NCBI GenBank assembly: GCA_009602725.1
Contig: WELB01000136.1
Location: 292,467-336,967, forward strand
DNA from: Spirogloea muscicola
Lineage: Eukaryota > Streptophyta > Zygnematophyceae > Spirogloeales > Spirogloeaceae
Direction: 5' to 3'
DNA length: 44,501 bases
Shown: in pieces, positions 3,540-37,420 of the stretch
Numbering within the stretch: the stretch's first letter is position 1
Layout of the letters: every line of letters begins with the position of its first letter
Notes under the pieces: generated by a model
Databases searched by the model: none
What the model saw: the letters and a program-made list of their open reading frames with translations, nothing else
What the model was told of the DNA's origin: nothing
Made by a program: the position numbers and the translations under genes

Positions 3540-3593
3540 CGTTCCGGCGCAATCAGCGACCTCCACATGCTGACCCGTGGTCACGGATTGTAA
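3540..3593 (+). mobile_element. Non-LTR retroelement 3' coding tail (subfamily C-like)
   Basis: The short frame AISDLHMLTRGHGL-stop (TAA at 3591-3593) matches the C-terminal signature SDLxxLTRG shared by the other non-LTR fragments in this window. No upstream homology can be followed, so this is a severely 5'-truncated or decayed copy. A tail-hairpin repeat in the opposite orientation starts about 10 bases downstream. Short match, so confidence is limited. Confidence 0.35.
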
Positions 3594-3603
3594 GCTCATC
3601 CAA

Positions 3604-3736
3604 AGGGGGTGAGGGCTGTGAATACCAGCCCAAAAAGAATGGTGACTGAGCGGGCCAGCATAGAAGAAATCTTAGCAGCTTTTCTGAAGGGGCCGAGGGC
3701 TACAAAGGGCCAGCCACAAAGATTGACAAGGTCCAG
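3604..3736 (-). repeat. Two tail-hairpin repeats (retroelement 3' tail)
   Basis: Two decayed copies in minus orientation (3604-3643 and about 3688-3736). Each has the pattern GAGGGCT..CCAGCC(C)A(C)AAA followed by a GACAAGGTCC-like block. Read on the minus strand this is the hairpin-bearing 3' tail found after the coding ends of subfamily A. Confidence 0.5.
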
Positions 3737-4015
3737 AAGAAACTGAAGGCGGATATGGCGGAGAATGTACGCAAGCATTCTGGAGGATGGGGCGCTCATT
3801 ACAAATAGTCAGCACCCGCACATCAGAAATACAAGCAGCCGCATAGCCAGCATGGCAGCATGTGCTCCAGGTGCTTACCTTTATACTTCGTCCTCCATCA
3901 ATCAGTACATGGAATCTAGAGAAATTTGAATCCTCCGTGAAAGTGGAAATCTTTGAACAGTTCTATCGGCTGTAGTCTCTTGCCAAAGCCGTGTGATGTT
4001 GGCGCCTCTTGCCCC

Positions 4016-4152
4016 TTCGAACCTTTCCCAAACTTTCTGGGCTTTTTCCACAGCCATCGCCCTCTTCTGGAAGAAGAAAGTGCCCGCCCTGAGGGAAGGG
4101 GGGTTAGCAAAGCCAGCCCAAACAAGAATGGACAATGTCCAAATCCAAAGAT
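4016..4152. repeat. Opposed pair of tail-hairpin repeats
   Basis: A plus-oriented copy (about 4016-4072) abuts a minus-oriented copy (about 4081-4152, containing AAAGCCAGCCCAAAC and GGACAATGTCC). The minus copy lies 3' of the element fragment whose stop is at 4208-4210 and is taken as its 3' untranslated region. GGACATTGTCC is itself nearly palindromic, so the tail can form two successive hairpins. Confidence 0.55.
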
Positions 4153-4207
4153 GAAGGTGCCGAAAGAGGACTACACTACAAAACCCGAGATGATGCAGAG
4201 GGAAGTT

Positions 4208-4813
4208 CAGTACCCGCGAGTGAGCAACATCAAGTCAGAGTAGCTCGCTGCAGGGAAAGAGGCAATCCATCGAGACCCAGAGGCAGCAGCCATACCATTG
4301 CCTGCTCGCATGTGATGGCGTGGGCTAGAGAGCGTTGAAACGAGACCGCTAGGCGCATGCGGAATACCTGGGCGAGCGAACCGGCGGCGTTCAAGCCGGG
4401 CATCGCCCCTGGCAGACCTGGCCGCCGATCAATGGCCTGACGGGCAAGCCGCTGGAGGAGATCAGCCAGCGGCTGCCGAGAGCCCCGTGTACGTGAATCG
4501 CCAGGGCCGCAAATTGATCACCAACCGGGTGATCGCATATTTGCGCTCTTTGCCCCGGGCCGCCAGGCCGACCGTGTGCCCTGCAGTCGTCGCCGATCTA
4601 GTGAGATTAGCGGAGTCCACGCCGTCAGAAGTCACCACATCGGCGATGACGCGGGACCGCCGCCGGGCGGGATGGCGACCAGGTCGGCGCGTCGGGTATG
4701 GAGCTGGCCGTCTGCACCCCGCTGGATTGGCATTACCGAGGTACTTTCCACGGCGACCTTGTAGCCCGCCTCCATGAACACCCCCTGCATGCCATCTCGC
4801 AGGAGGTCGTGGG
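4208..4813 (-). mobile_element. Non-LTR retroelement C-terminal domain, 3' half (split by copia insertion)
   Basis: On the minus strand from 4813 downward the translation begins HDLLRDGMQGVFMEAGYKVAV, then shows a GADGQLHTRRADLVA segment and an IADVVTSD segment. After some frame decay it ends in SDLMLLTRGY with TGA at 4208-4210. Asp in the first segment and Asp in ADVVT fit the PD...(D/E)xK layout of a restriction-like endonuclease-type fold seen at the C-terminus of some non-LTR retrotransposons. The 5' half of the same domain (zinc-knuckle part) lies at 9258-9450, on the far side of the copia element; removing copia and one target duplication rejoins the frame. The copy is a pseudogene. No reverse transcriptase is left. 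Confidence 0.72.
4809..4813. repeat. Target-site duplication, left copy
   Basis: GTGGG immediately before the 5' LTR. Its partner after the 3' LTR is GTTGG (9258-9262), a 4/5 match. Five bases is the usual Ty1/copia duplication length. Confidence 0.6.
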
Positions 4814-5272
4814 TGTTGAATATAGAAATATGGTAAATCAGTGGGTCGGTAGAATCACCCAGTATGCCTATTCTTCTATGCCGATGAGAAACTCCATAGA
4901 TAAGGGGAGGCCCCGGCTAGGCCCATTATTGGCCCAAACACTCTTGCGGCTCTGTGTGCGGCAAGGCGGCGCTGTGTGCGCGGCGGCTCTGTGTGAGGCG
5001 AGGCGGCGCTGTGTGCGCGACGGCTCTGTGTGAGGCGAGGCGGCGCTGTGTGCGCGGTGGCTCTGTGTGAGGCGAGGTGGCGCTGTGTGCGCGGCGGCTC
5101 TGTGAGCGGTGAGGTGGTGCTGTGTGTGCGGCAGTTCTGTGTGCGGCCAGGTGAAGCTGAGTGCTCGCCGGCTCTGCGTGTAATCAGGCAACCCTTTGTG
5201 ATACTCTCAATTCTTTGTGATCATGTACGCATTTGCGTCAAGACGAGGGCTGGCAGAGCAAGAAGTACAACA
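4814..5272 (+). repeat. 5' LTR of the copia element
   Basis: 459 bp, starting TG and ending CA. The U3-like half contains a tandem array of a 37-bp unit (about 4947-5150), described separately. A TATAAGG-like box is not evident; a GATAAGGGGAGG stretch near 4899 is the closest element. Differs from the right LTR at about 15 positions. Confidence 0.93.
4947..5150 (+). repeat. 37-bp tandem repeat inside the LTR
   Basis: About five and a half copies of a unit beginning CGGCTCTGTGTGAGGCGAGG and ending CTGTGTGCGCG, with scattered substitutions. The same array is present in the right LTR (about 8932-9135). It produces arginine- and alanine-rich open frames that are not genes. Confidence 0.85.
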
Positions 5273-35422: not shown

Positions 35423-35533
35423 AAAAAAAAAAAAAAAAAAAAAAAAAAAAAAAAAAAAAAAAAAAAAAAAAAAAAAAAAAAAAAAAAAAAAAAAAAAAAA
35501 AAAAAAAAAAAAAAAAAAAAAAAAAAAAAAAAN
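35423..35533. repeat. Run of 110 A followed by N
   Basis: 35423-35532 is uninterrupted A, then N at 35533. It lies between the SelO exon 1 codons and a (GGC)n-rich segment (35540-35620) that would be its 5' part. A genomic homopolymer of this length in a GC-rich exon is unusual and suggests an assembly or sequencing artefact at a join. Confidence 0.9.
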
Positions 35534-35734
35534 AGCTCCAAAGCGGCGGGGCCGGCGGCGGAGGCGGCGGCGGCGGCGGCGACGGCGGCGGCGGCGGCAA
35601 TGGCGGCGGCGGAAGCTGGCTGGCGTCCAGGCGCCTGCTGGCTCTATGCGGCTGGCCACGTGCCGCCTGGCACTGCGGGCACTGGTGGCAATTGGTGGCG
35701 CAAGGGCTTGTCACTTGCCGTCTGGTATGCGGCC

Positions 35735-35910
35735 ATCACTTCGCGACCTCCATGTGGTGTGTTACCGTGTGCTGACTCGTGTGTGGTTACTGAGCGGGTC
35801 AGCTTAGCAGAAGGTGATGTACATCTGTCACTGTGCTGCCCTTTGTACTTTGGCCACTCAGGCCCTCCATCTCTCAATACACACTCCATTCCTTGGCTCA
35901 AGCCTGACCT
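35735..35910 (+). repeat. Subfamily C 3' tail with decayed coding end
   Basis: RDLHVVCYRVLTRVW (35740-35790) resembles the SDLxxLTRG ending with an insertion. It is followed by GAGCGGGTCA, GCAGAAGGTGATGTA, CTTTGTACTTTGGCCA and TCTCAATACACAC. The same order of blocks follows the coding tail at 37270-37314. Confidence 0.5.
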
Positions 35911-37012
35911 GGCGTCCACTCTCTGTGGCTCTTTGGACAATTTCTGCTGTAATCAAAGCAGAAACATCAGAACCCCAAGGACTTGACGTTTGGGCACCCA
36001 GCTTACCATGATCAAACGTGGCGCTCTTGTGCTTGTGACAAGGAAATAGCAAGATATTGAGATCTGCAGGGAAGGCAGGTTGTTGTTGTGCATGCAATAA
36101 ATTGGGTTCGACTGCCCAGAGCTAAGAGCGTCTGAAGGTGGATGTTGGATTAAGAGAAAGCACAACCTGCAGACTTGCCCATTGTCTCCACCTCCCTGGT
36201 AAAGATATGTGAGTCGGGCGAGGAATTCAGATGGAGAAAACGCAGTTGCGGACAGAAGTCAATGACGAATCAAATTATTCTGCTCCAAAGTACTTCGAGG
36301 TGCTTCATGGTGATCAGCATCTACGTGTACAAAGAAGTACCATGCGACACATCAGGCTGCGGCTGTGGCCTTGTATCAAGGTGGTACGGAGTAGAGTAGT
36401 CATTGACCAGCTTGCCAAGTAAGGTGCCCCTTGTTTAGAAAGCCAACGGCTTCACGGACACCTTTCGAGAATTTCGACTAAGCTGCATGGCATCCGACGA
36501 CGGCAGTTGGCCGCAAGCTAGTGAATTCCAGCGTCATTTGTGCAACGATTCCGATCCAGGTCGAGTATTTGACTCGCCCTCAGGTCGCATGTCACTTGTC
36601 TCATTCATTGGCAAGGTCCCTTATGCCTACCAAGTGATAGAGCATTCCATACATACTGCCTGTTCCTTTGATGAGCGAGAGTAAGTATTCAAGGGGCCAG
36701 AGGGTGTAATCTGCCAGCCTAAGCAAATTCAAGAAACTCTGTTGTCAGAACATCTGCAAAGAAGAGACGTGCCTGAGGTCAATGTCCGGCGCGACCCAAC
36801 AGTCAGCTGCCCTGTTGATCAGGTACGTACACCTGTATACTGTGTGCATCGAGATGATGGCAAGTCGAGAGTTGTCACCATTCGTCACTATAGAAAAACA
36901 AGCTACTCGTCGGTTTGTTACAATCAACAGCATCACTCTTTGATGGTACGTCTAGCTAGTCAATGAAGACGAGTCAACTCCTTTCGGCTATGCTTAGTTT
37001 TGTGCTTGCTTC
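35911..37012. other. Spacer without identifiable gene
   Basis: About 1.1 kb. Frames at 36231-36422 and 36487-36684 (the latter starting MASDDGSWPQASEF) have a more protein-like composition than elsewhere, but no family is recognised, splice partners are unclear, and they may be remnants. Confidence 0.35.
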
Positions 37013-37014
37013 CC

Positions 37015-37212
37015 TTAGCGCTTCCCCTGGCCCCCTACTCGTACTTTGTTCATTCTTTTTAGGGCTGGCTTGTCCAGCCCCTCTCCTCAATGGGCGAGCC
37101 CTTTCTCTTTTAATGTTGACAATACCCTGAGCCCTACGCAAAGGACTTGGCCTCCTTGCCACGAGCGGCATTGGCTGCTAATACGAAAAGCCAGCCTTCA
37201 GAAGAACGAACA
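37015..37212. repeat. Tail-hairpin repeats, opposed pair
   Basis: Plus copy 37015-37110 (CTTGCTTCCCTTAGCGCTTC, TTTTTAGGGCTGGCTTGTCC, CCTCAATGGGCGAGCCC) and a shorter minus copy at about 37178-37212 (CGAAAAGCCAGCCTTCAGAA). Confidence 0.6.
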
Positions 37213-37269
37213 AGGTGCAGTATGTTGTCGTGTTTGGTAGAGTAGTCCTTTTCCCAGTAAGGACTACTT

Positions 37270-37420
37270 CATGCATCGGTTAGCGACCTTTATATTTTGA
37301 CCCGTGGATTTTGAGCGGGTCAACCTGCTGTAGGTTATGTAGATATTTAGATGTGCTTGCTTGCCTTTGTACTTGGCCATTGGCCTATGTTTGTTTCAAA
37401 TACACGAAATTTTCCCAGTA
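37270..37420 (+). mobile_element. Non-LTR retroelement coding tail and 3' tail (subfamily C)
   Basis: SVSDLYILTRGF followed by TGA (37312-37314), then GAGCGGGTCAACCTGCTGTA, TGCCTTTGTACTTGGCCATT and CAAATACACG. This ties the subfamily C tail to a coding end of the same SDLxxLTRG type. Confidence 0.6.

Follow-up and report, generated by a model that had tools for sequence, protein, structure and literature searches.

The genome of the alga Spirogloea muscicola, in a 44,501-nucleotide (nt) stretch of contig WELB01000136.1 (hereafter the window), contains numerous protein-coding fragments that close on a decapeptide of the form SDLxxL(T/S)RG(Y/F). These fragments are very probably 5'-truncated, nested and decayed copies of a large and recently active family of R2-type non-long terminal repeat (non-LTR) retrotransposons with a restriction-like endonuclease (RLE), residing in a green-lineage nuclear genome.

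The presence of motif-ending fragments in the window is confirmed. The strict pattern S[DN]L..L[TSN][RS] occurs at 10 places, against a mean of 0.17 and a maximum of 3 in 100 random sequences that keep the window's base-to-base transitions. When the fixed positions of SDLxxL[TS]RG[YF] are scored, all 8 are present at 7 places, at least 7 at 11 places and at least 6 at 13 places (0, 0.05 and 1.45 expected, respectively, from 60 random sequences); one of the 13, at 21976, is probably a chance match. The places lie on both strands and are concentrated between 3.5 and 15 kb; stubs occur farther on, near 18.2, 24.9 and 37.3 kb. An earlier examination of the letters of the window (the sequence-only reading) had counted at least thirteen fragments, which is about right if degraded ones are included (12 of these 13, plus a shortened ending at 14886). 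It had also placed the ending usually right before the stop codon, which holds directly for 8 of the 13 and one residue later for 24942, and fails for the other 4. A nuclease region does lie where that reading had put it, at 11752-12392, at 13023-13595 and at 4210-4812 together with 9258-9396. These longest window copies preserve nuclease parts of a single protein family and are, by segment, 36-91% identical to a long member from elsewhere in the genome. No intact copy was found in the window.

The complete A1 element

The translation of 13143-13592, used as a protein query against the genome to which the window belongs (153 Mb in 471 contigs; the window lies on contig C136), yields at least 150 matches (those scored of 19,200 candidates), in open frames of up to 1,403 residues. 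RbcS has eight matches in this genome, at four places with two pieces at each, which points to a nuclear genome of the green lineage. Sixteen genome stretches of 9.9 kb (numbered with the prefix L) were chosen around long frames and for that reason are biased to young copies. Compared with L049, 13 of 15 stretches are 99.3-100% identical over the part present, L044 and L053 being 93.7% and 89.8% identical; L039 and L048, which have kilobases of flank in common, may be one locus. Comparison of copies gives an element, designated A1, of ~4,112 bp with one open reading frame (ORF). The 5' ends of several copies fall within ~15 nt of one another, an in-frame ATG lies ~90 nt from the 5' end (context GCCATGGGG), and the 3' end is at CTTTCTTCT, without poly(A). 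L043 is complete; L042, the source of protein P0001, lacks the first 185 bp, so that the first 61 residues of P0001 are flank.

The A1 protein is ordered as N-terminal zinc-finger-like motifs, reverse transcriptase (RT), knuckle, PD-(D/E)XK nuclease and a short C-terminal tail. Pfam identifies RVT_1 in the long ORF (8.3e-16) and, in two long ORFs (that of L043 complete) searched at E up to 1, nothing beyond RVT_1 and weak zinc fingers: no APE-type endonuclease, RNase H, Ulp1-type protease or Myb domain. (Two CX2CX12HX3C motifs are discernible by eye; only the second is matched by zf-C2H2 types, at E 0.087-0.39, below the cut-off.) In comparison with the PDB, R2 is the best match of the RT and LINE-1 ORF2p is far weaker, R2 proteins being the sole solved relatives at significant E-values. 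The predicted fold of the nuclease is R2-like; its VIA list also contains spliceosome chains (best 8.1), which we take to be Prp8, and influenza PA (8.0). The sequence-only reading had proposed a non-LTR retroelement, together with a whole-genome check that has now been run: the long copies carry an RT upstream, and the restriction-like endonuclease downstream of it is borne out. NCBIfam returns only a group II RT match, below threshold, and searches of plasmids and viral contigs gave no useful match. The one match listed in genome contigs is by sequence a bacterial group II intron-like RT and was read as unrelated. Rfam at gathering level finds nothing in L043, L044, L050 or the window, with neither an R2 ribozyme nor an R2 3' untranslated region (UTR) family; a relaxed search of L043:3700-4250 gives three other families, each below the cut-off, and a diverged hepatitis delta virus (HDV)-like ribozyme could escape it.

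The sequence-only reading had pointed to Dualen/RandI, an algal group of long interspersed nuclear elements (LINEs) with a PD-(D/E)XK-like nuclease, as in the family described here. Dualen is given as a LINE group with both APE and PD-(D/E)XK nuclease (PMC3636483) and is reported from chlorophyte algae (PMC8226300), which speaks for an element of this type, with its APE domain carried or lost. Dualen/RandI carries APE, RNase H and 3' simple repeats, and none of these was found in the algal family. Membership is rejected because Pfam shows no APE-type endonuclease or RNase H in the two long ORFs. Moreover, the 5' end lies ~90 nt before the in-frame ATG, the 3' end is unlike the (ATT)n or (CTATTT)n repeat given for RandI (PMC3747384), and only R2 is found among significant solved relatives. 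A Dualen/RandI-type origin is thus unlikely.

Insertion pattern, tails and relatives

Copies were counted over the whole genome by 35-nt patterns with at most 3 mismatches. The tail pattern occurs at 4,177 places and the 5' end pattern at 49, 23 of them with 0-1 mismatches; reversed controls give 0. The 5' end places with 2-3 mismatches include a second group (CCTAAACCCCGGGCC...), which suggests that this GC-rich 5' stretch may be common to another subfamily. Among 43 copies with at least 97% identity and a complete 3' end, a repeat across the insertion of at least 6 nt is present in 22, of at least 7 nt in 19 and of at least 8 nt (8-11 nt) in 15; shuffled pairings give means of 3.3, 1.1 and 0.42 and maxima of 11, 5 and 3. 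The flanks of these copies vary, and do not represent one site; several are other family members, as at window 9529-9689. A single 28S ribosomal DNA (rDNA) site does not appear in the flanks of the 43 young copies, the 28S itself not having been searched directly.

Truncation from the 5' side, a precise 3' end and target duplications make up the signature of target-primed reverse transcription, which we infer to be the mode of insertion; the near-identity of copies points to recent activity. By analogy with R2, the element protein would bind the 3' UTR of its own RNA (at a GGGCTGG-type hairpin in the A types and at other sequences in B and C), the RLE would nick target DNA, and reverse transcription would start from the nick. 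Such a process would leave copies that are cut short on the 5' side, end precisely on the 3' side and are bordered by short target duplications, at sites that vary. That long intact ORFs exist might also be expected if host genes of one family had recruited a nuclease domain. This origin is hardly conceivable, being already contradicted by the thousands of tails scattered over the genome, by truncation on the 5' side, by the target duplications and by the RT located in the same ORF.

An extra 5' segment (~140 nt or more) is found at only 3 genome places (L043, L044 and L050), each time directly after an A1 tail, that is, head-to-tail, with different upstream truncations. Read-through of one tandem locus, template jumping and duplication all fit this arrangement.

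The sequence-only reading had described a constant C-terminus joined to three different tails. The motif is shared, and tails A, B and C are all present in the window; the family is better described as diverged subfamilies with their own 3' UTRs. Earlier tail classes had partly been assigned using the motif. Tails were re-clustered without it, from the 62 nt that directly follow it, and C-terminal peptides, likewise stripped of the motif, were used to build a tree of 40 of the 80 motif rows (78 have tails of at least 60 nt; the rest are too short or duplicates). All 17 rows of tail type A1 form one clade (100/99), as do all 4 of type B (95/91) and 6 of the 7 of type C (99/94), the seventh being on a very long branch; placements are rough because several end branches are very long. 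The tail labels require 13 changes on the tree (minimum 11, shuffled mean 22.1), and none of 200 shuffles is equally low. The main tail types thus follow the tree clade by clade and are therefore subfamily 3' UTRs. For the main types, the tree gives no support to the idea that one element generally carries three tails. In each of the classes A1-A4, some rows, though not all, have as their best stem a hairpin of the GGGCTGG, GGCTGG or GGGCTG type, with different loops (a plain count, uncorrected for chance).

Exceptions to the match between tail and subfamily are single mosaic or interrupted copies. L044 is a mosaic: its first ~2 kb are 0-0.4% from A1 and the rest is mostly 11-14% divergent, with an A3-like tail; either template switching or gene conversion may have produced it. 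In L040 the tail is replaced after LLSR. L051 reads as a 3'-truncated A1 insertion within a C copy, rather than as an A1 body with a C tail: ATCAGTTA is present in both flanks, and on the 5' side extra bases (by eye) separate it from the point where the alignment to the element starts. L043, L051 and L052 show slightly higher divergence towards the 3' end. In L035, 51 nt past the motif, a C-type tail is inserted in the A1 tail; the 5' end of this C-type tail bears an inverted repeat of 16 bp, as if that end had been copied back.

The nearest solved relatives are the R2 elements of animals (PDB 9nl3, 9nl2, 9dou, 8gh6 and 8ibw). R2 occupies one 28S rDNA site, whereas the algal family is at varied sites, with repeats of ~7-11 nt around its insertions. 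It differs further from R2 in the spacing of its knuckle, in ~22 extra C-terminal residues that carry the motif, and in having neither a Myb domain (Pfam) nor an R2 ribozyme or R2 3' UTR family (Rfam). BLAG of the German cockroach, compared by description only, is likewise R2-like, dispersed rather than rDNA-specific, and subject to recombination between copies, but has an animal host; the excerpt available makes no mention of a C-terminal decapeptide (PMC7650587).

Membership in another described RLE clade (HERO, NeSL/Utopia, R4 or CRE), again compared by description only, is a serious possibility, though we would not favor it. HERO, an RLE clade, is described with many non-specific families, and Utopia with one to three N-terminal zinc fingers, RT, zinc finger and RLE. 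On the other hand, Utopia is given, in the same excerpt, as found in three supergroups without Archaeplastida, and recognizable target duplications are said to be rare at its junctions (PMC4640811). The Pfam result for Ulp1-type protease and RNase H also tells against these clades.

The C-terminal ending

The decapeptide was assessed in 57 copies that reach the residue preceding it and were detected without use of the motif. It is whole, with its stop, in 34 copies; a further 11 have SDLxxL but are damaged beyond it or have lost the stop. Among six subfamily representatives the last ten columns are 78.7% identical, the preceding 12 columns 25.6% and the 48 before those 52.2% (the representatives were drawn from matches that reach the C-terminus, with some bias towards the motif). 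Where residues within the last ten columns are identical, only 32.2% of pairs also have the same codon, and serine uses six codons, arginine six and the second fixed leucine five. The conserved ending noticed in the sequence-only reading is therefore real, and is conserved at the level of protein in the 57-copy and codon tests; judged by sequence comparison, it is under selection as protein. It adjoins the 3' UTR and survives in short stubs (9529-9689, for example), which is what an RNA signal (a 3' end recognized by the RT) would also produce. However, stubs retain the ending because truncation comes from the 5' side, and the codon variety and the low fraction of shared codons make an RNA signal very unlikely.

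The ~22 C-terminal residues, motif included, lie past the end of the R2 alignment, and the predicted local distance difference test (pLDDT) score is below 50 for residues 253-288, a C-terminal end of low predicted order. A fixed short ending, a variable linker and low predicted order are often seen in docking motifs, and the decapeptide can for that reason be thought of, tentatively, as a candidate short docking motif for a partner.

A number of points weigh against the retrotransposon family reading or parts of it. R2-like here means nearest among solved structures, which is not a clade placement, the other RLE clades having been compared by description. The nuclease model is modest (mean pLDDT 63, with blocks of residues 91-250 at 59-92), the RT structure model has a pLDDT of 40.6, and the nuclease profile recovers no R2 by sequence from the PDB. 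The decapeptide is lacking in 12 of the 57 copies, several of which look like cases of frame loss or interruption, and it fits no motif known to us. Two small tail types, T4 with 3 rows and T3 with 2, fail to group together on the tree. No 8-nt repeat is found in 28 of the 43 young copies and none of 6 nt or more in 21, these copies being partly non-independent (L039 and L048 among them), and one of the 15 repeat-bearing copies (L050 at 3981) is a head-to-tail junction. The knuckle between RT and RLE is, by eye, CX1CX12HX3C in A1 and CX1CX8HX3C in a C-type copy; for RLE LINEs it is given as CX2-3CX7-8HX4C (PMC5678591). Finally, the evidence for the family is DNA sequence.

Window copies and wider meaning

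The first fragment of the window is a degraded 3' stub at 3555..3584 (+), found by motif scan, in which SDLHMLTRGH is followed by GL and the stop; it is on a long, unplaced branch of the tree. An A3-type copy (-) is present as its 3' part, from the nuclease domain to SDLMLLTRGY and stop (4210..4812, with tail A3 below 4210 containing GGGCTGGC), and as an upstream knuckle-region part (9258..9396). The two match the long ORF at 36-86% by segment (tblastn) and look like one copy split by a Ty1/copia-type LTR element (4813..9165, +). The latter has an integrase ORF and LTRs that start at 4813 and 8798 and are 96% alike; its outer ends are estimated from 37-bp tandem arrays within both LTRs (4946-5180 and 8931-9165). 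A young A1 stub at 9529..9689 (-), with SDLRLLSRGY, stop and complete tail A1, is 99.4% identical to L049 and is flanked by the repeat CTTTCTCCGA. It adjoins the end of the tail of an A3-like stub at 9698..9903 (-; SDLTLLTRGH, stop and A3-like tail, by motif and tail comparison). An internal A1 piece, cut at both ends (10110..10330, +), is 100% identical to A1 element 3614-3834; at 10028-10413 these 221 bp are bracketed by an 82-bp sequence in two identical copies, and position 10331 is a single N, so that an assembly join error is possible.

A B-type copy at 11027..11371 (-) comprises the end of the nuclease region, SDLVVLTRGY, stop and tail B TTGGCCTC, and is followed by an A-type C-terminal region fragment at 11443..11745 (-), 58% identical to A1. 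The A4-type copy at 11752..12392 (+) runs from the nuclease domain to SDLRLLTRNY, stop and a hairpin tail; it is 62-70% identical to the long member, with an in-frame stop near 11836 and a frame shift near 12273. The A1 copy at 13023..13595 (+), nuclease domain to SDLRLLSRLY, is 91% identical to the long ORF; its stop is lost and its downstream part interrupted. Motif scoring adds degraded motifs at 12734..12763 (+; SDLHSTTRGH and stop) and at 13982..14011 (+; SDKYVLTRGY and stop, a C-like ending), and at 14886..14909 (-) a shortened SDLRLLN and stop close the ORF of a short stub. Farther along are an old A-type stub at 18121..18390 (+; AGRALAAASD...SDLPLLTRVT and a degraded hairpin tail), an A1-like copy at 24737..25133 (+; last part of the ORF with SDLRLLSRGYE, stop and tail A1, 83-89%), an A1 tail alone at 37014..37106 (+; 91%) and a C-type stub at 37282..37416 (+; SDLYILTRGF, stop and tail C TTTGTACTTGGCCA). 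The segment 37275-37425 around this last stub has at least 42 genome matches including itself (40 of 2,530 candidates scored).

Single N letters at 10331, 15521, 20109, 23667 and 35533 are probably gap placeholders; several of them occur in GC-rich triplet repeats or in a run of A 110 bp long (35423-35532), or next to these. Host gene exons identified by Pfam are of short-chain dehydrogenase type (592-1095, +), glycosyl hydrolase family 16 (22083-23159, -) and SelO (32298-33782, -).

In a literature search at the level of titles and abstract openings, outside most subscription papers and Repbase, neither an RLE-only R2-like element from a green alga nor such a C-terminal ending was named. It is conceivable, if short of an even chance, that the family represents an unnamed, distinct clade of RLE-only, non-site-specific, R2-like green-lineage LINEs, in which insertion would require a partner, from the host or from the element itself, docked by the short ending, and in which the 3' UTR would differ from one subfamily to the next, at times because two templates had been joined (as in L044), while the docking motif stayed fixed. 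R2 proteins are under development as RNA-to-DNA insertion tools tied to an rDNA site (PMC12222951, PMC11371274). A young R2-like, RLE-only family with varied insertion sites in a green genome lends itself to comparison on the question of how elements acquire or lose their choice of target, and such a family would close a gap in the reported distribution of these elements. Its decapeptide, which varies less from subfamily to subfamily than the stretch preceding it, is a candidate site of partner binding in an R2-like protein and is open to direct test.

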